Source: an uncultured Chthoniobacter sp. (lineage in GTDB: Bacteria > Verrucomicrobiota > Verrucomicrobiia > Chthoniobacterales > Chthoniobacteraceae). Taken from it: a stretch of 41,942 nucleotides of DNA. Position 1 is the stretch's first letter. Each line of letters starts with the position of its first letter. This document shows, piece after piece, positions 3,442 through 20,239 of the stretch. The DNA lies in contig CAIQUL010000318.1 of NCBI GenBank assembly GCA_903874975.1, positions 1 to 41,942 on the forward strand, in the 5' to 3' direction. The notes beneath the pieces are model-generated. The model was not told the DNA's origin. It ran no database searches and was given only the letters and a program-made list of their open reading frames with translations. Made by a program: the position numbers and the translations under genes.

Positions 3442-3583
3442 GGGCCTCGCAGATAGGCCGGGGTTGGAGGCAAAGCGAGGCGATTTTCGCGGGCGGGGAG
3501 GAGGAATGAGGATAGGGGACTGCCTTGAAATACAATTAGTTGCCGTGCAGTGATTTGCCACTAGGGTGTGGCCCTTGAAACCG
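3442..3583. promoter_or_regulatory. Divergent intergenic region between lipoprotein and protease genes
   Basis: This is the only AT-richer stretch nearby and it must hold promoters for both divergent units. On the plus strand TTGAAA at about 3528 could be a -35 element, but the sequence 17 nt downstream is a poor -10. No operator-like palindrome is evident. Assignment as a regulatory region follows from gene orientation only. Confidence 0.3.
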
Positions 3584-6500
3584 ATGCTGGTCCAGCCCCC
3601 CACCCGCCGCGCGCACGCTGGCCTGCTCTCCAGCTTGCTCTTGCTGATGGTTTTCGCGGTGTCGGCCCGGGCCGGTTCGCATGCGGAAAAGCGGACGCTG
3701 CCGGACTTTGATAAACGCACCGCGGTGGCGGCGGCGCCGGTGCATCCCGACAAAACGGCGGCGGCGGGGCAACTCCGCGGACGGCTGCGCGCGGCGCGGG
3801 TGGAGACGGATGCGATTTCCGATGCGCCGAAGGTCGTGGGCTCGCCCTTCGAGTTTCTCACCGGCCCGGCGGGGGAGGGTCGCGCGGTGCCGCGGGCGCG
3901 GTTGCAGGCGCGGGCGAAGGGCGAGGCGCATCGGGAGGTGAAGGCGTTCCTTGAAGAATACAAAGCGCTTTACGGTCACGGCGCGGAAGCGCTGAACGCC
4001 GCGCAGGTGAAGCGCGACTACACGAACAAGCACAACGGGCTGCGCAGCGTGGTCTGGCAGCAGCAGGTGGACGGCGTGCCGGTCTTTGGCGCGATGATGC
4101 AGGCGCACACGACGAAGAACGGCGAACTCGTGAACGTGGCCAGCCAGTTTCTCGCCGACCCGGTGGCGGCGGCCGACCGCGGCACCCCGCGGCGGGCGGC
4201 GCGGCTCGCGGCTCCGGCGATCTCGGCGGTGGAGGCGGTGGCCATCGCCGCGCGCAATATCGGAGAGGCCGTGCAGGCGGCGGATCTCACGCGCACTTCG
4301 GCTCCGGCCGGGGTGGAAAGAAAGCAGGCGTTCAAGGCGGCGGCACTGCGCGGGGCGACGGCCCAGTTGACCTGGCTGCCGATGGACAAAGGCAGCGCGC
4401 GGCTGTGCTGGGACGTGGTGCTGACGGGGCGGACGACCGGGGAAATGTTTCGCATCCTGATCGACGCCACGACTGGCGAGGCGCAGGTGCGGCATGGCCT
4501 GACCACCTACATCAGCGAGGCCACCTACCGCGTTTTCACCGGCGACAGCCCCACGCCTTTCCAGCCCGGCCACGCCACGCCCTCGACCGCGCAACCCGCC
4601 GAGGTGCCGCGCACGCTGGTCACGCTCAGCGCGCTCGACCCCACGGCTTCGCCGAACGGCTGGATCAACGACGGCGTGACCGAAACGCGAGGCAACAACG
4701 TGGACGCGCATCTCGACGTGGATAACAGCAACACCCCCGACCTGCCGCGCCCGCAGGGTTCGGGGCTGAACAACCGCGTCTTCGATTTCCCGCTCGATCT
4801 CACGCAGGCCCCCAGCACCTACCGCAGTGCGACCGTGACGCAGCTTTTCTACTGGTCGAATTGGACGCACGACAAACTCTACCAGCTCGGTTTCAACGAG
4901 GCGGCGGGCAATTTTCAGGCGGACAATTTTGGCCGCGGCGGCGCGGGCAATGACGCCGTGGTGGCCGAGGCCCAGGACGGCAGCGGCACGAACAACGCGA
5001 ACTTTTCCACCCCGCCGGATGGCAGCGCCCCGCGCATGCAGATGTATATCTTCGACGGCCCCAACCCGGATCGCGACGGGGCGTTTGATGCGTCCATCGT
5101 AATCCACGAATACGTCCACGGCCTGAGCAACCGGCTCGTCGGCGGCGGGGCTTTGATCAGCAGCGCGGCCACGCAGGCGATGGGCGAAGGATGGTCCGAT
5201 TTCTACGGCCTCGCGCTGCTCGCGAAGCCGGGCGACGACGTGCATGGCAACTACGTGATGGGCGGCTACGCCACGCTCGGCTTCAGCGGTCTGACGGAGA
5301 ATTACTACTTCGGCATCCGGCGGTATCCGTACACCACGGACATGACGAAAAATCCGCTGACCTTCCGCGACATCGACCCCAACCAGGCCAGCCTGCACAG
5401 CGGCATCCCGCGAAATTCGGTCATCGGCACCGGAGCCAATCAGGTCCACAACGCTGGCAGTGTCTGGTGCGCGGCGCTGTGGGAGGCGCGCGCCAACATG
5501 GTCGTCAAACACGGCTTCGCGATCGGCAACCAACTCATCCTCCAGCTCGTGACCGACGGCATGAAGCTCTCGCCGGCGAACCCGAATTTCCTCGAGGCGC
5601 GCGACGCCATCATCCAGGCCGACCTCGTGAACAACGCGGGCGCGAATCGCATCGACCTGTGGGCGGCCTTTGCCAAACGCGGGATGGGTGCGAGCGCCAC
5701 GGCACCGTCGAGCGCGACCATGATCGGCGTGGTGCAGTCCTTCGATCTGCCGGACGACCTCGGCGTTTCCCCCAGCAGCGAAATCACCGCGAGCGGGCCG
5801 GTCGGCGGACCTTTCAGCAACACCTCCGCGACCTACACGCTGAAGAACCACGGCACCGCAGCGATCAACTGGACGGCCTCGACCGCCGCCGCGTGGCTGA
5901 CGGCTTCCGCCAGCAGCGGCACGCTCGCGCCGAGCGCGACCACGACCGTGACGGTCTCCGTGAACGCGGCGGCCAACAGCCTGCCCGCCTCGATCCTCGC
6001 CGCTGCGATCATCTTCACCAATACCGGCTCCGCCGGCGTGCTCACGCGGGCCGCCAATCTTTACATCGGCCAGCCGGACAATTTCACCGAACTCTTCGAC
6101 ACCACGGACATCGACACGGCGAACACGTCTTTCACTTTCACCCCGCACCCCTCCGCCGCCGGATACTCCGTGGTCCGCGAACCGGTGACCTCGTTTCCCT
6201 CGGACACGACCACCGGGGCCACGACGATCGGGATGGCGGACGACTCCAGCGCGTTCGTCACCCTCTCCGGCGTGACCGTGCAACTTTACGGCACGAGCTA
6301 CTCCTCATTTTTCGTGGGCAGCAACGGCTACATCACCTTTGGCTCCGGTGACACGCAATGGACGGAATCTTTCACCAATCATTTCGCCATGCCGCGCATC
6401 GCCGGATTTTTCCGCGACCTCAATCCGCCTCTCGGCGGCGGCACGGTGAAACGTCGGCAGTTTGCGGACCGCATCGCGGTGACGTGGCTGAGCGTGCGGG

Positions 6501-9175
6501 AATTCGGCACGTTCCTGACGAACAATTTTCAGATCGAGATGTTCTTCGACGGGCGCATCCGCATCACGCAACTCACGATGAACTCGAGGAAAGGACTCGT
6601 CGGCCTCGCGCGCGGGACCGGCGTCCCGGCGGGTTTTGTGGACAGCGCCTTCACCACGTACGCGTTGCCGACGCTCGGGGTGACGCCGCCCGCGACTGCG
6701 ACCGAAGGGGCGGGACCGCTCGCAAATCAAGGCACGGTCACGCTTTCCAGCCCGACGGCCATCGCCCGGACGATCGCGCTGACCTCCAGCGACCCGACCG
6801 CCGTGACCGTCCCGGCCACGGTCACGCTGCCCGCGGATCAGACGAGCGTCGCGTTCACGCCGACGATTCTCGAGGACCCGAAAATCAACGGCACGCGCGC
6901 CGTCACGATCACCGCCAGCGCGACCGGCCTCGCTCCCGCGAACGCCGCGACGAATGTCGCCGACAACGAGCACACCAACCTCGCGCTCGCGGTTCCGAAT
7001 CTCAACGAAGGCGGCACCTCGACCGGCACCGTTTCGATCTCCGGCACGTTGCCGACCAACCTCGTCGTTGCTCTCGCCTCGAACACGCCCGCGCGGCTGA
7101 CCGTGCCCGCGACCGCGACCATTCTCGCCGGAGCGACGAGCGCGACTTTCACCGCGACCGGCGTGGAGAACACGATCGCCGACGGCAATGCGAACGTCAC
7201 CGTCACGGCGAGCACGGCGGGCTTCACCGGCGGCACGACCACGGCGTCCGTGGAAGACAACGACGCGCACCATTTCGTCATCGCGCCGATCGTCGGCCCG
7301 CAGATTCGCGGCGCGCCGTTCAGCGTGACGATCAGCGCCGTGACAGCGAGCGGTGTGCCGGTGCCGAGTTACAGCGGCGCGGTCTTTCTCACCACGCTGA
7401 CCGGCGTGCCGATCGGGCCGGCGACGGTCACGCTCGTCGGCGGCACCGTCACCACCGCGATCACTGCCGGCACTTTCGCGAATGCCGTGATCCTGCGTGT
7501 CCTCGACCTCGGCTGGCGCACCGGCGCGAGCAATGCCTTTGACGTGACCTTCGGCCCGCTCGATCACTTCGCGTGGGATCCCATCGGCGCGTCTCCGGTG
7601 ATCGGGGCGCCATTTGCCGTCCGGCTCACGGCGCTGGATGTGGCGGGCAACACGGTCACCGATTACACCGGTCCCGCCGCGCTCGACTGCGGCACGCCGG
7701 GGAACCGCACCGTGCCGCTGAGCCCGGCGGTGACGGGAAATTTCGTGGCGGGCGTTGGGACGGGTTCGCTCGCGGCGGGGCAGATCATTGATGGCGTCAC
7801 GCTCCGCGCGGTGGATGGCGCGGCGGAGGGCGAAAGCGCGACGTTCAACGTGCTCGGGATTCCCGTGCTCGGCCTCACGCCGGCGGACGGGCTCGCGGCC
7901 TCCGGCAATTTCGGCGGGCCGTTTGTCCCGCCAACCGCGACCTACACCGTGACCAACTCCGGCACGGGCGTCCTCGCGTGGACCGTCTCCACACCGGCGG
8001 ACTGGCTCACGTTCTCCGCGACCAGCGGCACGCTCGCGCAAGGTGCGAGCGCGACCGTCACGGCCACCGTCACCGCGCCGCACACGGACCCTGGCCAGCA
8101 CGCGGCGGACATCACTTTCACCAACACCTCGAACACGCTCGGCACGACCGCCCGCGGGGCCGCGCTCGCGGTGAATCTGCCGCCGCCCTCGCTCGCGTGG
8201 CTCCCCGCTTTCCTCGGCGGGACAACGGCGACCCTCACCTGGGGACCGGTCAACGGCGCGCAGTGGTTCGAGGCGCAATGCTCCACCGATCCCGGCTTCA
8301 CTGCGCCCACTTCGAGCGGTTTCATCGCCGCGAACAGTCACACTTTCACCGGCCTGGCCGACGGCCGGCACTACTATCGGGTGCGCTCGCGGCGGATCAG
8401 CGGCGCGGCGGTTTTCGACAGCGCCTGGAGTCCGCTCCAGACCTCGTATCAAGCCGCAACCGGCCCCGCCGTCATCGTCACCTCGCCCACGCTCACCCCC
8501 CAGCCGTTCTTCACCGTCAATGGCCTCGCCTTTGGCCCGGCCGGTGTCGCCTCCATCACCGTCAACGGGACACCCGCGACCAGTGCCAACGGCTTCGCGC
8601 ACTGGACCGCCGCCGGCGTGTCACTCGCGCCGGGCACGAACACGCTCGTCATTGAATCCGCCGCCACCGGCTTTGCGCCGACCACGACCACGACCAACTG
8701 GAACGTGTATCTCGCCGCGATGACCACCGACTTCGACCACGACGGCCTGCCCGACCTGTGGGAAATCCAGTCCGGCTTGAGCTTCGACAACGCCACCGGA
8801 CAGAACGGGCCGCTCGGCGACCTCAGCGGCAACGGCGTCCCGAATCTCCTCAAATACGCCCTGAACCTCGACCCGCACAGCGCCGCGCTCACCGGCCTCC
8901 CGGCCACGAGCATCGAGCTAAACCCCGCCGACTCCGCGCGCTACCTCACCTTCCGCTACCGCCGCCGTCTCAGCCCCGGCCCGCTGCAATACCAGATCGA
9001 GGCCACCTCCGACCTCACGACTTGGACGAGCACCGCCGCCGACTTTGAGGAAGCCGCGCCGCCCGTGCCCAACGCCGACGGCTGCACCGAGACCGTCACC
9101 ATTCGCGTCAAACCCGCGATCGACACTCCCGGCACCCCGACGCGCAACGTCCGCCTGCGCGTCCTCGTCCCGTAA
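3584..9175 (+). CDS. Secreted M36 (fungalysin-like) metalloprotease with multidomain C-terminus
   Basis: 1,863 residues from the ATG at 3584, which gives a typical signal peptide (RRAHAG, a Leu-rich core, cleavage near SARA); a GTG at 3566 is an alternative. An FTP/PepSY-type propeptide follows (about 110-190). The M36 catalytic domain contains HEYVH (508-512), with the third zinc ligand Glu in GEGWSDFYG (about 535). After it come a BACON-like domain (about 735-815, GPVGGPFSNTSATYTLKN...), an unassigned region, two Calx-beta-like repeats (about 1030-1228), two short unassigned beta domains, a second BACON-like domain (about 1436-1530), a fibronectin-III-like domain (about 1535-1620) and a C-terminal DFDHDGLPDLWE calcium-binding-like segment with the NLLKYAL motif. 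It should be exported and may bind glycans or the cell surface. T2SS export is inference. It stands alone on the plus strand between lipoprotein and exporter genes. Confidence 0.9.
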   Translation: MLVQPPTRRAHAGLLSSLLLLMVFAVSARAGSHAEKRTLPDFDKRTAVAAAPVHPDKTAAAGQLRGRLRAARVETDAISDAPKVVGSPFEFLTGPAGEGRAVPRARLQARAKGEAHREVKAFLEEYKALYGHGAEALNAAQVKRDYTNKHNGLRSVVWQQQVDGVPVFGAMMQAHTTKNGELVNVASQFLADPVAAADRGTPRRAARLAAPAISAVEAVAIAARNIGEAVQAADLTRTSAPAGVERKQAFKAAALRGATAQLTWLPMDKGSARLCWDVVLTGRTTGEMFRILIDATTGEAQVRHGLTTYISEATYRVFTGDSPTPFQPGHATPSTAQPAEVPRTLVTLSALDPTASPNGWINDGVTETRGNNVDAHLDVDNSNTPDLPRPQGSGLNNRVFDFPLDLTQAPSTYRSATVTQLFYWSNWTHDKLYQLGFNEAAGNFQADNFGRGGAGNDAVVAEAQDGSGTNNANFSTPPDGSAPRMQMYIFDGPNPDRDGAFDASIVIHEYVHGLSNRLVGGGALISSAATQAMGEGWSDFYGLALLAKPGDDVHGNYVMGGYATLGFSGLTENYYFGIRRYPYTTDMTKNPLTFRDIDPNQASLHSGIPRNSVIGTGANQVHNAGSVWCAALWEARANMVVKHGFAIGNQLILQLVTDGMKLSPANPNFLEARDAIIQADLVNNAGANRIDLWAAFAKRGMGASATAPSSATMIGVVQSFDLPDDLGVSPSSEITASGPVGGPFSNTSATYTLKNHGTAAINWTASTAAAWLTASASSGTLAPSATTTVTVSVNAAANSLPASILAAAIIFTNTGSAGVLTRAANLYIGQPDNFTELFDTTDIDTANTSFTFTPHPSAAGYSVVREPVTSFPSDTTTGATTIGMADDSSAFVTLSGVTVQLYGTSYSSFFVGSNGYITFGSGDTQWTESFTNHFAMPRIAGFFRDLNPPLGGGTVKRRQFADRIAVTWLSVREFGTFLTNNFQIEMFFDGRIRITQLTMNSRKGLVGLARGTGVPAGFVDSAFTTYALPTLGVTPPATATEGAGPLANQGTVTLSSPTAIARTIALTSSDPTAVTVPATVTLPADQTSVAFTPTILEDPKINGTRAVTITASATGLAPANAATNVADNEHTNLALAVPNLNEGGTSTGTVSISGTLPTNLVVALASNTPARLTVPATATILAGATSATFTATGVENTIADGNANVTVTASTAGFTGGTTTASVEDNDAHHFVIAPIVGPQIRGAPFSVTISAVTASGVPVPSYSGAVFLTTLTGVPIGPATVTLVGGTVTTAITAGTFANAVILRVLDLGWRTGASNAFDVTFGPLDHFAWDPIGASPVIGAPFAVRLTALDVAGNTVTDYTGPAALDCGTPGNRTVPLSPAVTGNFVAGVGTGSLAAGQIIDGVTLRAVDGAAEGESATFNVLGIPVLGLTPADGLAASGNFGGPFVPPTATYTVTNSGTGVLAWTVSTPADWLTFSATSGTLAQGASATVTATVTAPHTDPGQHAADITFTNTSNTLGTTARGAALAVNLPPPSLAWLPAFLGGTTATLTWGPVNGAQWFEAQCSTDPGFTAPTSSGFIAANSHTFTGLADGRHYYRVRSRRISGAAVFDSAWSPLQTSYQAATGPAVIVTSPTLTPQPFFTVNGLAFGPAGVASITVNGTPATSANGFAHWTAAGVSLAPGTNTLVIESAATGFAPTTTTTNWNVYLAAMTTDFDHDGLPDLWEIQSGLSFDNATGQNGPLGDLSGNGVPNLLKYALNLDPHSAALTGLPATSIELNPADSARYLTFRYRRRLSPGPLQYQIEATSDLTTWTSTAADFEEAAPPVPNADGCTETVTIRVKPAIDTPGTPTRNVRLRVLVP

Positions 9176-9263: not shown

Positions 9264-10037
9264 GTGCCAGTGAATCCGAGCTCAACCGCCACGCCCGCCG
9301 CTCCCGCGAGTGCGCCATCCCGCGATGCGGGCCGCGAGCTGCTCTTTCAGGCGCGCGGGCTCACAAAGGTTTACCCGAGCGGCGAGGCGGAGATTCGCGC
9401 GCTCGATGGCGTGGACCTCGATCTCTACCGGGGCGAACTCATCGTCCTGCTCGGCGCGTCGGGTTCGGGAAAGTCCACGCTGCTGAACATCCTCGGCGGG
9501 CTCGATACGCCGACGGGCGGCACGCTGACCTACCGCGGGAGCGATCTCGCGGGCGCGAATGAGGACGGCCTCACCCGTTTTCGGCGCGACGCGGTCGGCT
9601 TCGTTTTCCAGTTCTACAATCTGATCCCGAGCCTCACCGCGCGGGAAAACGTGGCGCTGATCACGGAAATCGCGCGCGCGCCGATGACGCCGGAGGCCGC
9701 GCTGGCGCTCGTCGAACTGACGGACCGGCAGGATCATTTCCCGTCGCAGCTTTCCGGCGGGCAGCAGCAGCGGGTGGCCATCGCGCGCGCCATCGCGAAG
9801 CGGCCCGAGGTTCTGCTTTGCGACGAGCCCACCGGCGCGCTCGACGTGAAGACCGGCATCACCGTGCTCGAAGCCATCGAGCGCGTGAACCTCGACCTCG
9901 GCACGCTCACCGTCCTCATCACCCACAACTCCGTTCTCTCCGACATGGCCGACCGGGTCATCCATCTTTCCGACGGCGTGATCGTGGACATTCGGGAAAA
10001 CAAGACGCGCCGGTCGGTGCGCTCGCTGGCGTGGTGA
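9264..10037 (+). CDS. ABC transporter ATP-binding protein (MacB/LolD-like)
   Basis: 257 residues from a GTG at 9264. The N-terminal 25 residues are Ala/Ser/Pro-rich and probably disordered. Walker [10 protein letters not shown] lies at 64-72, the Q-loop in [10 protein letters not shown], the signature LSGGQQQR at about 162-169, Walker [13 protein letters not shown] just after, and the switch His in LITHN. The closest families are the ATPases of MacB, LolD and DevA, which work with FtsX-like permeases by mechanotransmission rather than by transporting substrate through the membrane. The permease and a HlyD-type adaptor follow on the same strand, so the three form one tripartite exporter operon. 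The substrate is unknown; antibiotics, peptides or envelope lipids are all possible. The gap to the permease is filled by an inverted repeat. Confidence 0.93.
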
Positions 10038-10041
10038 CATG

Positions 10042-10184
10042 GGAAATGACGAATGACGAACGTCGAATGACGAAAAAAGCCCGAAAGCCGAATGACGTGA
10101 ACCGCGCGCGAGCGAGCGCGCCTGATTCGTCATTCCCGCTTCGTCATTCCTTCGTCCTTCGTCATTCCACATTCGTCATTCCAT
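10042..10184. repeat. Inverted word repeat, family C (GAATGACGAA word)
   Basis: The left side (10042-10073) holds three copies of a word close to GAATGACGAA. The right side (10125-10184) holds about five copies of its complement, TTCGTCATTCC. The centre has a small GC palindrome (GCGCGAGCGAGCGC). The element fills nearly the entire gap between the ATPase and permease genes, and its last word (CATTCC) runs directly into the ATG of the permease. It may fold into a long imperfect hairpin in the operon mRNA. Confidence 0.75.
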
Positions 10185-11067
10185 GACCGCGCTCGACCTC
10201 AAACTGGTCCGCGACATTGGCAAGATGAAGGGCCAGATGTTTGCCGTCGGCATCATCATGGCTTGCGGGCTGGCGATGCTGATCATGATGCGGAGCCTCA
10301 TCCTCTCGCTCGAATCCACGCGCGACGCCTACTACACGCAGCACCAGTTTGCGGACGTATTCTGTGAGTTGAAACGTGCGCCGAACGCTCTGCGGACGCG
10401 GCTCGCCGGGCTGCCGGGTGTGGCCGCGGTGGAGACGCGGGTCACGGGAAACGTGACGCTCGATCTGCCGGGGCTGGCCGAGCCGGCGGATGGCACGATC
10501 ATCTCGCTGCCCGACGATCGCCCGCAGCGGTTGCACACCCTTTTCCTCCGCCGCGGACGGCTCCCGGAACTCGGCAGCCGCAATGAAGTCGTGGTCGGCG
10601 AGGCTTTCGCGGAAGCGCATGGCTTCGCGCCGGGGAACACGATCACTGCGATCATGCACGGCGCGCGGCAGACTTTGAAAGTCGTCGGCATCGCGCTCTC
10701 GCCGGAGTTTGTCTTTGAGGCGCGGGCGGGCGACACGCTGCCGGATAACCGGCGCTTCGGCGTTTTCTGGATGAACGAGCGCGAACTCGCCAACGCCTTC
10801 CAACTTGATGGCGCGTTCAACAGCGTGCTGATCGACGTCGCCCCGGGCGCGACGATTCCGCCGGTGATGGCCGAGCTGAACCGCGTGCTTGCGCCCTACG
10901 GCGGGCTCATCGCGTATGATCGGCGCGACCACCCTTCCGCGAAGCGGCTCGACGACGAGATCAACATTCTCGGCGCGCTTTCCGTCGCGTTTCCCACCGT
11001 CTTTCTCAGTATCGCGGCCTTCATGAGCAGCGCGGTGCTCACGCGTCTGGTGCGGCTCCAGCGCTAG
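10183..11067 (+). CDS. FtsX-like ABC permease, N-terminal part ending at an in-frame amber codon
   Basis: 294 residues from the ATG at 10183 to TAG at 11065-11067. It begins with a short cytoplasmic segment and a membrane helix (about 18-40). A MacB-type periplasmic domain follows, then a second membrane segment (FPTVFLSIAAFMSSAVL) just before the stop. The residues flanking the stop, VRLQR and QIAQLKAFGYS, are the two halves of the conserved cytoplasmic coupling-helix region of FtsX-family permeases (usual form QREQIGxLKAxGxS). The same frame continues with good codon usage to 12546, so this is one gene with a nonsense codon. The likely ancestral codon is GAG (Glu). A sequencing error, a real mutation or read-through are all possible. 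The truncated product would lack most transmembrane helices and should be non-functional alone. Confidence 0.8.
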   Translation: MTALDLKLVRDIGKMKGQMFAVGIIMACGLAMLIMMRSLILSLESTRDAYYTQHQFADVFCELKRAPNALRTRLAGLPGVAAVETRVTGNVTLDLPGLAEPADGTIISLPDDRPQRLHTLFLRRGRLPELGSRNEVVVGEAFAEAHGFAPGNTITAIMHGARQTLKVVGIALSPEFVFEARAGDTLPDNRRFGVFWMNERELANAFQLDGAFNSVLIDVAPGATIPPVMAELNRVLAPYGGLIAYDRRDHPSAKRLDDEINILGALSVAFPTVFLSIAAFMSSAVLTRLVRLQR

Positions 11068-11157
11068 CAGATCGCGCAGCTCAAGGCGTTCGGCTACTCC
11101 TCGCGGCAGGTCGGTTTCCACTACCTGAAATTCTCGCTCGTCATCGTTGGGTTCGCG

Positions 11158-12546
11158 TTGGTGGTCGGCGCGATGGTCGGTGTCTGGATGGGCACCAATG
11201 TCGTCGGGATTTACCACCGCTTCTTCCGCTTCCCGCTGCTGACCTTTCATCTCGACGCACCCGCCATCGGCGTCGCGTTTCTGGTCAGTTCGGGAGCGGC
11301 GTTTGTCGGCGTCATCGGCGCGGTCCGGCAGGCGGTGAAGCTTCCGCCCGCCGAGGCCATGCGCCCCGAACCGCCGGCGGAGTTTCGCGCCTCGCTGTTC
11401 GAGCGCATCGGTCTCGCCCGGCTCGCGTCGCCAGCCTTTCGCATGGCTTTGCGAAACCTCGAACGCAAACCGTGGCAGGCCGCCTTCACCGCGCTGGGGC
11501 TCGCCCTGGCCACGGGCATCCCGGTGGTGCCGGGCTCGATGCGCGAGGCGATCGACTATCTCATCCGCGTGCAGTGGGAGGAGGCCCAGCGGCAGGACGT
11601 GACGGTCAGTCTGATCGAGCCCGGCTCCGGCGCGGCGCTGAGCGCCATGCGGCACCTGCCCGGCGTGGTGCAGGCCGAAGCTTTTCGCAGCGTGCCCGCG
11701 CGGCTGCGCTTCGGGCATCGCAGTCGGCGGCTCGGCGTGACCGGCGTCCCGCGCGAGGCCCAGCTCAGCCGCCTGCTCGACGCCGACCGCCAGCCGCTCG
11801 CGCTCCCACCCGATGGCCTGCTCCTCTCGGCGAAACTCGCGGAAATCCTCGGCGCGAAACCCGGAGACCGCATCATCCTCGAAGTCCAGGAAGGCCGCCG
11901 CCCGACCTGCGAGGCGACCATCCAGGGGCTCGTCACCGACTACGCCGGCCTCGCCGCCTACATGGATGTGGAAGCGCTCCGCCGCCTCATGCGCGAAGGC
12001 CCCACCGTGAGCGGCGCGTATCTCACCGTGGATCAAAGCCACTGGCCGGCCTTTCTCCAGGCGGTGAAAGAATCGCCGCGCGTGGCCGCGCTCGGCATCA
12101 AGAGCGCGGTGCGCGCGAGCTTTCGCAAAAGCACCGCCGACATGATCGGGCTCGTGCAGGGGCTCTACTTCAGCTTCTCCATCGTGGTCGCCTTTGGGGT
12201 CGTCTATAACAGCGCACGCATCGCCCTTTCCGAACGCAGCCGCGACCTCGCCACCCTGCGCGTCATTGGCTTCACCCAGCGCGAAGTTTCCGCCGTGCTC
12301 ATCGGCGAACTCGCGCTGCTCACCCTCATCGCGCTGCCCGTCGGCCTCGTCATCGGCAGCCTGCTCGCGCAGGGCATTGTCGGCACCGCCAGCACCGAAA
12401 GCGTGCGGCTGCCGCTCGTCCTCACCGCTCGCACTTATGCCACGGCTGTGCTCATAGTTCTGCTCTCCGCGGGCTTTTCCTTCGCCGTCGTCAGCCGTCG
12501 CATCCAGCGGCTCGACCTGCTCGGGGTGTTGAAAGCGCGCGACTGA
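11158..12546 (+). CDS. FtsX-like ABC permease, C-terminal part downstream of the amber codon
   Basis: Continuation of the same reading frame as the N-terminal part. The frame is open from 11068; the GTG/ATG starts near 11158 are simply the first available and probably not used as natural starts. It contains the rest of the first FtsX domain (helices near 11150-11330), then a second complete MacB-PCD/FtsX module. That module carries MALRNLERKPWQAAFTALG at its start, a periplasmic domain, and three membrane helices with SERSRDLATLRVIGFTQRE as the second coupling helix. With the N-terminal part the protein would be 787 residues, normal for the duplicated two-module permeases of this family. It pairs with the upstream ATPase and the downstream adaptor. 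Confidence 0.75.
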   Translation: MVVGAMVGVWMGTNVVGIYHRFFRFPLLTFHLDAPAIGVAFLVSSGAAFVGVIGAVRQAVKLPPAEAMRPEPPAEFRASLFERIGLARLASPAFRMALRNLERKPWQAAFTALGLALATGIPVVPGSMREAIDYLIRVQWEEAQRQDVTVSLIEPGSGAALSAMRHLPGVVQAEAFRSVPARLRFGHRSRRLGVTGVPREAQLSRLLDADRQPLALPPDGLLLSAKLAEILGAKPGDRIILEVQEGRRPTCEATIQGLVTDYAGLAAYMDVEALRRLMREGPTVSGAYLTVDQSHWPAFLQAVKESPRVAALGIKSAVRASFRKSTADMIGLVQGLYFSFSIVVAFGVVYNSARIALSERSRDLATLRVIGFTQREVSAVLIGELALLTLIALPVGLVIGSLLAQGIVGTASTESVRLPLVLTARTYATAVLIVLLSAGFSFAVVSRRIQRLDLLGVLKARD

Positions 12547-12589
12547 TTCCATGATCCACCTCTTCCTGATCTTGTATCCGTCGCCTTCG

Positions 12590-12700
12590 CGTGGCGCGGA
12601 CGCCTCCGTCCGCGACTGTGGCGCGGGCGCCCCGCCCGCCGCAGGCTGCGACGGACGAGGCGTCCGCCGGATCATCACGGACGAGGGCGTCCGCGCCACG
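12590..12700. repeat. Inverted word repeat, family D (GGCGCGGACGCC word)
   Basis: Arms 12590-12612 and 12678-12700 match as inverted repeats at 21 of 23 positions. The spacer contains a related word (GACGGACGAGGCGTCCGCC) and a GC-rich inner segment. It occupies most of the gap between the permease and the HlyD-type adaptor genes, and it could attenuate or terminate transcription of the adaptor. No coding capacity with plausible composition is seen here. Confidence 0.75.
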
Positions 12701-12723
12701 CGGAGGCGGCATCCATCGCTTCC

Positions 12724-13980
12724 ATGACTTCCCCATCGCTTCCCACTGTGACTACAGCGCGATCTAACCGGCGCAAGCCCGGCACGTGGCGGCGCTTTAT
12801 CCCGTATGTCATCGTCAGCGCGCTCGGGGTCGCCATCGTCGGTGGGCTGCGCCAGCGGGTCATCGAGGTCGAGTCGGCGACGGTCATCACCGGCCCGCTC
12901 GACGTGACGGTGCTGGAGGAGGGCAAGACCCGCATCCGGCATCGTTACGTCATTTCGCCGCCGATCTCCGGCTACCTGAACCGCATCGCGCTGCGCGCCG
13001 GCGACCGCATCGCCGCCGGCCAGACCGTGCTCGCCACCATCGAGGCGCAGCCGTCGGCTTTCCTCGACCCGCGCGCCCGCGCCGAGGCCGAGGCCCGTGC
13101 CAATGCCGCCGCCGCCACGAAGCAGCGCGCCGAATCCGAACTCGAACGCCTGCAAGCCTCCCTCGCGCTCGCGCAGAAAGAAAAGGCGCGTGCCGCCGAT
13201 TTGAAGACCAAAGGCGCGATCTCGACCAAGGAATGGGACACCGCGGAAACTCAGGTCACCATGATCACGCGCGAACTGCACTCCGCGGAGTTTGGCATCC
13301 GCGTGGCGGAGTTTGAGCGCGTCCAGGCGCAGGCCGCGCTCGCCCAGGTGCAGACCCCGGCGACCGCGCGATCCGAACCGTTCACGCTACTTTCGCCGGT
13401 CACCGGGTTCGTCCTCAGCGTGCAGGAGGAAAGCGCGCGCACCGTGGCCGCCGGCGTAGCGCTCATGGAAGTCGGCGATCCCACCGATCTCGAAGCCGAG
13501 ATCGAGCTGCTCTCCAGCGATGCCGTGGGCGTGCAGCCCGGCGCGGAGGTCAGCATCGAGCAGTGGGGTGGCGCGGCGCCGCTGCGCGGAAAAGTCACCG
13601 TCGTCGAGCCCGGCGGCTACACGAAAGTCAGCGCGCTCGGCGTGGAGGAACAGCGCGTGAAAGCGCGCGTCGAATTCACCGACCCGATCCCCGCCACGCA
13701 CCCGCTCGGCGACCGCTTTCGCGTCGAGGCCCGCATCCTCACCTGGCGCGGCGCGAACGTCCTCCAAGTCCCCACCGGTGCGCTTTTCCGCCGCGGCAAC
13801 GACTGGATGACCTTCGTCCTCGCCGGGGGAAACGCCCGGCTGACGAAAGTCGAAATCGCCCACAACAACGGCCTCGCCGCCGAAGTCCGCTCCGGCCTGC
13901 AGCAAGGCCAGAGCGTCATCCTCCACCCGCCCGACGCCCTCGCCGACGGAGCCGCCGTAAAGACCCGCGGCGCGCGGTAA
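12724..13980 (+). CDS. HlyD/RND-type membrane fusion protein (periplasmic adaptor)
   Basis: 418 residues from an ATG at 12724. A single N-terminal membrane anchor (about 25-42) is followed by a barrel-sandwich half, a long Ala/Glu/Arg-rich coiled-coil hairpin (about 115-205, with repeated AEAEARANAAAATKQ-like heptads), the second lipoyl half (LLSPVTGFVLSVQEE) and beta-barrel/membrane-proximal domains to the end. This is the organisation of adaptors such as MacA, DevB and HlyD, which bridge an inner-membrane transporter to an outer-membrane TolC-like channel. The order ATPase, permease, adaptor supports one tripartite exporter. No TolC homologue lies nearby. The start is preceded by CGCTTCC and lacks a Shine-Dalgarno motif. 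It converges with the histidine kinase gene with only 5 nt between stop codons. Confidence 0.9.
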   Translation: MTSPSLPTVTTARSNRRKPGTWRRFIPYVIVSALGVAIVGGLRQRVIEVESATVITGPLDVTVLEEGKTRIRHRYVISPPISGYLNRIALRAGDRIAAGQTVLATIEAQPSAFLDPRARAEAEARANAAAATKQRAESELERLQASLALAQKEKARAADLKTKGAISTKEWDTAETQVTMITRELHSAEFGIRVAEFERVQAQAALAQVQTPATARSEPFTLLSPVTGFVLSVQEESARTVAAGVALMEVGDPTDLEAEIELLSSDAVGVQPGAEVSIEQWGGAAPLRGKVTVVEPGGYTKVSALGVEEQRVKARVEFTDPIPATHPLGDRFRVEARILTWRGANVLQVPTGALFRRGNDWMTFVLAGGNARLTKVEIAHNNGLAAEVRSGLQQGQSVILHPPDALADGAAVKTRGAR

Positions 13981-17432: not shown

Positions 17433-18527
17433 CTAGCTGATGCGCATCGGCATGAGCACGTAGAGGAACGGGGTCTGGATCTTGATCACGCCGGGGCTCA
17501 TTTCGTCGATGAGATCGAGGAAGATCTCGTCGTTGGGCAGGGCGCGAAGCGGGGCCTGGAGAAACTCGGGGTTGAAGGCGATGGAGAATTCGCGGCCTTT
17601 GTAGGCCACGGCGAGCGACTCGCGGGCTTCGCCGATGTCGGGCGTATTGGCGGCGATCTCGATGTTGTTTTTCGTAAAGACGAGTTTGACCGAGTTGGAT
17701 TTCTCGCTGGAGAGGAGGGAAACGCGGTGGACGGCGTTGAGGAAAGTTTCGCGCTCGAGGGTAATGCGCTCCTTGGCTTCGCCGGGGATGACTTGGCGGT
17801 AGTTCGGGTAGTTGCCTTCGATGAGTTTGGAAACGAGGAGGCTGCCGCCGATCTCAAAGGCGATCTGGTTTTCGCCGACGCTCATTTTCACGTCGCCCTC
17901 GTCGCCGAGCAGGCGGCCGAGTTCGGTGACGCACTTGGTCGGGACGATGATTTCGACTTCCTGGCTGCGGGGAAACTCGACTTCGAGATCGACGAGCGCG
18001 AGGCGGCGTCCGTCGGTGGCGACCATGGTGAGTTTGTTCTCCTTGAAGGAGAAAAGGATGCCGTTGAGGACGTAGCGGGTCTCGTCGGTGGAGATCGCGT
18101 AGCTGGTTTTTTTCAGCGCGTCGCGGAGGGCCTGCTGGTGGATGGTGAAGGTCTTGGCACCTTCAAACTTCGGGAGCGGGGGAAATTCCTCCTCGGGCAG
18201 GCCGAGGATTTTGAAGAAGCTCTGGCCGCAGCGGATGGAGGCGACGTTTTTCGCATCGATCTCGATCTGGACTTCGGCGGCGGGGAGTTCGCGCACGATG
18301 TTGGCGAGGCGCCGGGCGGGCAGGGTGGTGGCACCGGGTTTCTCGATCTGTGCGTCGATGACACCGCTGACGCCGACATCGAGGTCCGTGGTGGTGAGCC
18401 GGAGCTGGCCGTCGGCTGCGTGGAGGAGGACGTTGGAAAGGATGGGAAGCGTGGTGCGGGTGCTAACGACGTTTTGGACCGTTTGCAGACCGGCGAGGAG
18501 CTTCTCTTTGCTGACGCTAAATTTCAT
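17433..18527 (-). CDS. dnaN: DNA polymerase III beta subunit (sliding clamp)
   Basis: 364 residues from an ATG at 18527, the standard DnaN length of about 365-375. It begins MKFSVSKEKLLAGLQ and carries family landmarks including RTTLPILSNVLL (about residue 24), LTTTDLDVGV, DGRRLALVD near the end of domain II, NYPNYRQVIP in the linker to domain III, and the C-terminal LMPMRI strand, which forms part of the clamp-binding cleft. The dimeric ring tethers polymerase III to DNA and recruits repair and initiation factors. It lies 93 nt downstream of dnaA on the same strand, the classic bacterial arrangement, so the two are probably co-transcribed. The gene ends with TAG, which shows that TAG is a normal stop codon here. 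The bases before the start (CCAATCCCT) contain no Shine-Dalgarno. Confidence 0.97.
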   Translation of the reverse strand: MKFSVSKEKLLAGLQTVQNVVSTRTTLPILSNVLLHAADGQLRLTTTDLDVGVSGVIDAQIEKPGATTLPARRLANIVRELPAAEVQIEIDAKNVASIRCGQSFFKILGLPEEEFPPLPKFEGAKTFTIHQQALRDALKKTSYAISTDETRYVLNGILFSFKENKLTMVATDGRRLALVDLEVEFPRSQEVEIIVPTKCVTELGRLLGDEGDVKMSVGENQIAFEIGGSLLVSKLIEGNYPNYRQVIPGEAKERITLERETFLNAVHRVSLLSSEKSNSVKLVFTKNNIEIAANTPDIGEARESLAVAYKGREFSIAFNPEFLQAPLRALPNDEIFLDLIDEMSPGVIKIQTPFLYVLMPMRIS

Positions 18528-18620
18528 AGGGATTGGAGTGGCGGTTTAGATGAATGATTGCCCGAAGCGCTGCAATCATTTTCCCCAAGGGTTTCGGCGG
18601 ATAATCCGCGGCGGCCGGCG
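18528..18620 (-). other. dnaA-dnaN intergenic spacer
   Basis: 93 nt without coding signal. Near 18597-18609 there is a perfect small palindrome, GCGGATAATCCGC, close to the dnaA stop. It is too short and lacks a T-run, so I do not call it a terminator. No DnaA box is seen here. Confidence 0.4.
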
Positions 18621-19973
18621 TCAGCGCGTGAGCTGGCTGTCGAGAAAGGAGACGACGTTGCGGGTCTTCTCGTCCTTTTGGATGCGGCCCTTCACGAGCC
18701 GGTGCGCGTGGAGCACGGTGCCGTGGTCGCGCCCGCCAAAGGCGTCGCCGATTTCGCTGAGCGAGATTTTCGTCAGCTCGCGGGCGAGGAACATGGCGAT
18801 CTGTCGCGGAAAGGCGATGTTCGCGGGGCGGCGCTTGCTGGTCATGTCGGCGATCCGCACGTCGAAGTGTTCGGCCACGCGCTTTTGAATTTGGTCGATG
18901 GTGATCGCGCGGCGCGCCTCCTCGTGGAGGATGTCCTTGAGCAGATGCTCGATGGTTTCGAGGTCGGGGACGCGGCCTTCATTGAGCGAGACGTAGCCGG
19001 CCACGCGCATCAGTGCGCCTTCGAGCCGGCGCACGTTGGTGCGGATGCGCGTGGCGAGAAATTCGAGGATTTCCCGCGGCAGGCTGATCTCCATGCCCTG
19101 CGCCTTTTTTCCGAGAATGGCGAGCCGGGTCTCGATGTCGGGCGCCTGCAACTCGGCGGTGAGGCCCCACTCGAAGCGCGAGACCAGCCGCGTTTCGAGG
19201 TTGGCGATTTCCGAGGGCGGGCGGTCGCTGGAAAGGACGATCTGTTTGTGGCCGTCGAAGAGCGTGTTGAAGGTGTGAAAGAACTCCTCCTGCGTGCGGC
19301 CCTTGTCGGCGAGAAACTGGATGTCGTCGATGAGCAGCACGTCGGCTTGGCGGTAGCGTTTGCGGAATTTGACGAGCGTGTTGTTCTGGATCGCGTCGAT
19401 GAACTCGTTGGTGAAGCTCTCGCTGGTGATATAGACGACCTTGGTTTTTTTCTTCGCCGCGATGGCCTGGCCGATGGCGTGCATGAGGTGGGTTTTGCCG
19501 AGTCCCACGCCGCCGTAGATGAAGAGTGGATTGTAGGTGCGCGCCGGCGCGTCGGCGACGGCTTTGCAGGCGGCATGGGCAAACTGGTTGTTCGTCCCGA
19601 CAACGAACGCGTTGAAAGTATTGCGCGCGTTCATCCCGGTGGCGCGGGTGTCGGTGGTCGAGCTGGTGTCCGGGACCAGGTCGGCCGTGGGCGCGGGCGC
19701 GGGGAGGGGAGCGGTCTCGGTGCTCGCGCCGGCAAAGACAAAGCGGATCTCCCGCTCGGCGTGCAGCACGAGCAGCACGGCGGCGCGCAGCAGGCTGATG
19801 TAGTTCGTCTCGATCCAGAGCTGGTAGATGTTATTCGGCACCCGCAGCGTGAGCTGTTTGGGGTCGAGTTCCACAAGGTCGATGTCCTTGAACCAGCGGT
19901 CGTACGTGTCCGTGCTGACGTCGGCTTTCAGGGCTTTCGCGATGGCGTTCCAGGTCGTCTTAAGGTCGGTCAT
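18621..19973 (-). CDS. dnaA: Chromosomal replication initiator DnaA
   Basis: 450 residues from an ATG at 19973; an in-frame extension to 20063 runs across the DnaA-box region and has no homology. Domain I (1-80) holds WNAIAKALKADVSTDTYDRWF and the oligomerisation surface. A Pro/Thr-rich domain II linker follows (about 82-112). Domain III is AAA+ with NTFNAFVVGTNNQFAHAA, Walker A GGVGLGKT (154-161), Walker B LLIDDIQFL, and the sensor region PPSEI. Domain IV ends with the helix-turn-helix signature SEIGDAFGGRDHGTVLHA, which reads DnaA boxes. ATP-DnaA opens the origin and also represses its own gene. A perfect DnaA box lies 11 nt upstream of the start codon, consistent with autoregulation. The start has no Shine-Dalgarno (ATCATTGAAA precedes ATG). 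Confidence 0.97.
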   Translation of the reverse strand: MTDLKTTWNAIAKALKADVSTDTYDRWFKDIDLVELDPKQLTLRVPNNIYQLWIETNYISLLRAAVLLVLHAEREIRFVFAGASTETAPLPAPAPTADLVPDTSSTTDTRATGMNARNTFNAFVVGTNNQFAHAACKAVADAPARTYNPLFIYGGVGLGKTHLMHAIGQAIAAKKKTKVVYITSESFTNEFIDAIQNNTLVKFRKRYRQADVLLIDDIQFLADKGRTQEEFFHTFNTLFDGHKQIVLSSDRPPSEIANLETRLVSRFEWGLTAELQAPDIETRLAILGKKAQGMEISLPREILEFLATRIRTNVRRLEGALMRVAGYVSLNEGRVPDLETIEHLLKDILHEEARRAITIDQIQKRVAEHFDVRIADMTSKRRPANIAFPRQIAMFLARELTKISLSEIGDAFGGRDHGTVLHAHRLVKGRIQKDEKTRNVVSFLDSQLTR

Positions 19974-19983
19974 TTTCAATGAT

Positions 19984-19992
19984 TTATCCACA
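19984..19992 (+). promoter_or_regulatory. DnaA box (perfect TTATCCACA)
   Basis: This is an exact match to the consensus 9-mer, located 11 nt upstream of the dnaA start codon. It may serve both origin function and autoregulation of dnaA. Confidence 0.75.
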
Positions 19993-20239
19993 GCGGCAAT
20001 TGAGGTTCTGGAGTTGCGAAAAGGCCGGTGCGAAACCGGCGAAAGGGTTCTCTGTCGGGCCATTCCAGCGGCGCGGCTGGCTGGCGGCAGATTTTTCCGC
20101 CGTGCGCAAATCGCTGGAAAACAGTGAGATGAACCGGCGGGGCGTGTGGAACGCAGATTTCACATGGCTCCGCGTCAACAGCGGCGGGGCAATCCTTTGG
20201 GAGACAGGAAGCGGTTGGGCTGGATGGCGTTTTTGGTCT

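Follow-up and report, generated by a model that had tools for sequence, protein, structure and literature searches.

The permease YbbP of the YbbAP-TesA complex of E. coli (PDB 9ge6, 9ge7) has two periplasmic domains, two FtsX modules and a coupling helix between TM2 and TM3, and its ATPase is encoded separately. The permease described here is like YbbP in all of these respects. However, it shares only 13% sequence identity with YbbP, the gene that follows it encodes an HlyD-type adaptor instead of a TesA-like esterase, and the copy analysed carries an in-frame stop codon. The second system of interest is the MacAB-TolC tripartite efflux pump (type VII ABC), in which MacB, as PMC5985334 describes it, has a fused ATPase and forms a homodimer of 4-TM units. 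Here the likeness consists of an ATPase of the LolD/MacB/YbbA group, a MacB_PCD domain and an adjacent adaptor of the HlyD/MacA type. The differences are a separate ATPase and a fusion of the two permease halves. A third comparison is with the in-frame stops in conserved bacterial genes treated in PMC7918605, which focused on stops common to two or more species in order to avoid artefacts. The stop studied here likewise interrupts an otherwise conserved frame whose dN/dS is well under 1, but it was found in one genome only.

The gene is located in a stretch of 41,942 nucleotides from an uncultured Chthoniobacter sp., referred to below as the window. We consider it probable (roughly 0.6) that the gene carries a very recent, strain-level nonsense allele of a YbbP-type permease which inactivates a three-gene exporter.

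A permease gene interrupted in its coupling helix

The permease frame (10183–12546) is placed between an ABC ATPase gene and an HlyD-type adaptor gene (Table 1). On translation its sole inner stop is the TAG at codon 295, which follows 294 residues and precedes 492 more before a terminal TGA; the frame is otherwise open over its 787 codons, in agreement with the earlier note, which had described a single in-frame TAG in an otherwise open frame. Pfam MacB_PCD matches the part before the stop (E 3.2e-9) and FtsX the part after it (E 9e-23, in two stretches). Over the whole frame PF02687 was matched twice (10987–11349 and 12169–12510), indicating two FtsX modules in one frame. Since these domains are matched, the orthologues are full-length and all 24 orthologues that cover the codon have Glu there, the frame containing the TAG is, judged from its sequence, a genuine gene and not a chance open frame.

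Table 1. Features of the exporter region in the window (first eight lines) and the corresponding regions of the relative G001
Feature	Position	Strand	Description
ABC ATPase gene	9264..10037	+	257 aa, LolD/MacB/YbbA-like, intact, TGA end; ABC_tran E 2.9e-35
Imperfect palindrome with AATGACGAA/TTCGTCATT repeats	10045..10180	.	ATPase-permease gap; 53-nt arms, 74% complementary
Permease, 5' part	10183..11067	+	294 aa, ends TAG; TM1, first periplasmic domain, TM2 and first coupling-helix residue (predicted)
In-frame amber codon 295	11065..11067	+	Glu in 24/24 orthologues
Permease, 3' part	11068..12546	+	492 codons + TGA; FtsX match
Permease, 3' part, contents	11068..12546	+	Rest of coupling helix, TM3 onward, second periplasmic domain, second FtsX domain (predicted)
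Long GC-rich palindrome	12582..12708	.	Permease-adaptor gap; 63-nt arms, 78% complementary
HlyD/RND_mfp-type periplasmic adaptor gene	12724..13980	+	418 aa, intact; HlyD_3 E 1.6e-11
G001 regions	L033 1410-2440 and L112 1501-3391		ATPase separated from permease-adaptor pair

The frames of the ATPase and the adaptor contain no inner stop, and the statement that the other two exporter genes are intact therefore stands. The best NCBIfam match of the ATPase is LolD-like, under the curated cut-off, and the adaptor scores 93.8 bits against the NCBIfam RND_mfp cut-off of 94.9. Within the fetched flanks the gene order ATPase-permease-adaptor is common to most relatives; the exceptions are L004/L033, L015 and L100, with no ATPase match within the flank, and L005, with no adaptor match. 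Just upstream of the exporter genes (3566–9175) is a frame of 1869 codons with a fungalysin (M36) metallopeptidase domain, a propeptide motif and a BACON-like domain.

The structure of the intact orthologue L033 was modelled with 21 other sequences added (22 rows in all; mean pLDDT 82.6). In this model, residue 295 is position 2 of a short helix (294–302) between two long helices (251–292 and 307–347), and the second half of the permease has a matching short helix (686–694). As the coupling helix of MacB and YbbP is placed between TM2 and TM3 in the accounts of PMC5985334 and PMC12646458, the model of an intact orthologue bears out the location of the stop in the coupling helix given in the earlier note.

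In a Foldseek search with the model, E. coli YbbP (9ge6) ranked first (E 2.0e-22, TM 0.67), and alignment to 9ge6_A with VIA-align gave Z 20.7 and rmsd 5.6 over 700 residues. By the latter method BceABS (8s5g) was level with YbbP in rank (Z 21.8, rmsd 9.1 over 507 residues), and YbbP was chosen because of coverage (700 vs 507 residues). BceB, LolC/E and MacB were matched more partially, and the periplasmic domain of LolE (5udf_C) fits residues 457–643 of the model (Z 17.1, rmsd 4.0 over 183 residues). Periplasmic domains of the MacB/LolC type were thus assigned to both halves, to the first by MacB_PCD and to the second by fold. A sequence-profile search of the PDB returned weak matches only, to LolC, LolE, LolF and MacB; YbbP was found only by fold. 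Simple pairwise alignment gave no significant internal duplication (score 53 against 59 for the best of 200 shuffles), and the duplication was accepted because of the double Pfam match and the structure model. In view of the fold matches to YbbP and, partially, to BceB, LolC/E and MacB, the protein is, as modelled, a YbbP-type permease of the type VII ABC class in which one polypeptide unites both halves.

If the stop acts as such, translation would end in the first coupling helix and yield a 294-residue fragment with TM1, a periplasmic domain and TM2. This fragment would be without TM3 and everything beyond it, including the second periplasmic domain and the second coupling helix. The ATPase would then be left with no complete permease to drive, so that the exporter would be off in this strain.

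Translation might instead restart after the stop, with a second polypeptide pairing with the first, so that the two pieces would form a working permease. Pairing of half-size type VII permeases is known, for example in LolC/LolE as presented in PMC5985334, and in-frame start codons are available about 30–35 codons past the stop (TTG 11158, GTG 11161 and ATG 11173). However, the cut is inside the first coupling helix and not at the boundary of the permease halves, and all three restart codons fall within TM3 (model helix 307–347), so that in the model the second product would lack the coupling helix. No homologue is split at codon 295 either, and we regard this explanation as the least probable of those considered.

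Orthologues and constraint beyond the stop

When 213 genomes of the order were searched, 27 sequences matched at E<=1e-40. The window's own match contains one TAG, and none of the other 26 contains an inner stop. The full-length orthologues (53–84% identity) align from residue 1–4 to residue 779–787. Codon 295 is covered by 24 distinct orthologues, all of which have Glu at this position (12 GAG and 12 GAA); this set excludes L033 (the same gene as L004), L103 and the fragment L016, which stops short of the codon, and the fragment L018 (residues 1–171) is also outside the comparison. A single-base change from GAG to TAG, as proposed in the earlier note, is in keeping with these codons. The accompanying claim of a Glu consensus for the family holds for the orthologue group but not for L103, the nearest paralogue-like match (29% identity), which has Thr at 295. 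Homologues naturally split at the same point, which the note had named as contrary evidence, were not seen among the 26 other matches. The permease is in two pieces, located on different contigs, in G034 and G058, but the breaks are near 399–419 and 440–450. In a search of the genus (5 genomes), nothing above 85% DNA identity was found except the window's own sequence.

To see whether the gene is decaying, changes between the window and L004 were polarised by the majority of seven outgroups, leaving 60 ambiguous and 29 fitting neither. On the window branch the ratio of nonsynonymous to synonymous changes was 20:42 in the pre-stop part and 34:66 in the post-stop part, a contrast without significance (Fisher p 0.87); on the L004 branch the ratios were 19:29 and 46:39, respectively. 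With a neutral expectation of about 0.69–0.73 for the nonsynonymous fraction, the share of the post-stop changes on the window branch that were made under neutrality has an upper 95% bound of 0.34–0.37. Of 160 invariant columns, the window differs in 2, namely 295 and 318 (Ala to Ser); when the orthologues were taken in turn, 22 of the 24 gave 0–5 departures, and the far L036 and L037 gave 22–23. The post-stop part of the frame thus looks normally constrained at the sequence level. The reading as an old, decaying pseudogene is rejected, there being no post-stop excess of nonsynonymous changes and no further stop.

The remainder of the frame is undecayed, and the stop is therefore very young, or false, or translated through. 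A post-stop part so well preserved counts towards a young nonsense allele, but would be expected just as much if the TAG came from a wrong assembly or consensus, or if the gene were still translated. The main rival is a consensus error: the TAG may be an error of assembly or a minority strain variant in the consensus, in which case the gene would be intact in the population and the exporter would work. The genome is a fragmented bin (3.86 Mb in 348 contigs, 95.89% complete, 1.11% contaminated), one substitution in an undecayed frame would account for everything, and the stop was seen in no other genome searched. On the other hand, the window gives no other sign of poor sequence, the nine other Pfam-supported genes checked in it having no inner stop, and natural nonsense alleles are commoner than wrong substitutions in assemblies of short reads. 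We hold an error or minority variant to be a serious possibility, though the less likely one. The weights of all four readings are matters of judgement, and the choice between the first and the second depends partly on this general difference in frequency. Within the preferred reading, a recent nonsense allele, three things are inferred: a real base in the organism, an inactive exporter and a young (strain-level) allele.

Decoding of TAG in this genome

Readthrough would leave the exporter in use: a near-cognate tRNA, or a missed suppressor, would decode the TAG and give full-length permease at a reduced level. Purifying selection persists after the stop, in line with this explanation. PMC7918605 reports that bacteria widely contain in-frame stops at dN/dS values below 1, and readthrough has been proposed for many bacterial in-frame stops. 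The anticodons of all 45 tRNA genes found in the genome were read and none is CUA, so that the tRNA scan for amber suppressors suggested in the earlier note came out negative. The recovered tRNA set is incomplete, lacking a few expected members such as Ile-GAU, Ser-GCU and Ala-UGC; this leaves room for a missing suppressor and makes the absence of CUA strong evidence but not final. Both RF1 and RF2 are intact and over the NCBIfam cut-offs (RF1, of 360 aa, scores 473.7 bits where 400 are required). PylS gave only a match below the cut-off (36.7 bits against 178.15), whereas 1 of 14 control genomes scored above that cut-off.

No second in-frame TAG was found in 75 domain matches from the genome (59 ABC_tran, 10 FtsX and 6 MacB_PCD). 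By domain, the inner stops were one TAA among the 59 ABC_tran matches, one TAG among the 10 FtsX matches (codon 295 of the permease) and none among the 6 MacB_PCD matches. In the window, TAG serves as terminator of dnaN and of a sodium:solute symporter (SSF) gene. A change of the code was accordingly rejected, and dedicated amber suppression seems unlikely from these data, because there is no CUA tRNA, the release factors are intact, no PylS was detected, no other TAG was found in frame and TAG terminates genes. A literature search joining amber codon, alternative genetic code and Verrucomicrobia found nothing. Thus, of the three options left by the earlier note, suppression finds no support, and recent inactivation and assembly error both stand.

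Near-cognate readthrough, to which the same observations apply, is further weakened by the stop being conserved in no relative, and we consider functional readthrough improbable. A special form of it, in which a real amber codon with useful near-cognate readthrough would be a transient brake on exporter dosage, is more improbable still; if true, the post-stop constraint would be selection acting through the stop.

Two further frames with inner stops were noted in this genome, one with a TGA and a weak permease match (G000:C331:2300-2866) and one with a TAA inside an ABC_tran match (G000:C211:1201-1545). Genes predicted to be broken or frame-shifted thus occur elsewhere in the bin, and broken frames are not unique to the permease. 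The dnaN gene adjoins dnaA on the minus strand (17433–20063 of the window), which suggests that the window may include the replication origin region.

Palindromes, operon stability and meaning of the stop

Both gaps between the exporter genes contain palindromes (Table 1), which differ in sequence type. The minimum free energy of the one between ATPase and permease is -60.2 kcal/mol (z -5.7) and that of the one between permease and adaptor is -108.9 kcal/mol (z -8.4). Copies of the 16-mer AATGACGAATGACGAA are scattered through the genome: 75 matches were counted with at most one mismatch, and none for the reversed control. Palindromes, CGTC families included, are treated in PMC3733652. Alignment coordinates put 145 bases between ATPase and permease in the window; in 21 relatives this distance spans -1 to 112 and is <=8 in 14 of them.

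A different contig carries the ATPase gene in G001, the closest full-length relative, where it stands beside a phosphofructokinase-like gene. The permease-adaptor pair is behind a divergent sugar-kinase-like gene, with a remnant of TTTCGTCATTCC just before the permease ATG; both kinase names come from reading the translations. This separation may mean that the operon has really been rearranged or broken, or that the contig is chimeric at the repeat. Because palindromic repeats are present in both gaps and the ATPase of G001 has a different neighbourhood, the operon around the permease appears to be unstable.

Beyond annotation the significance of the stop is small. For annotation, the gene should be marked as a permease with a premature stop, and neither as two genes nor as evidence of recoding. 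Provided that the base is real, this strain would have lost the transporter so lately that its remains are still undamaged.
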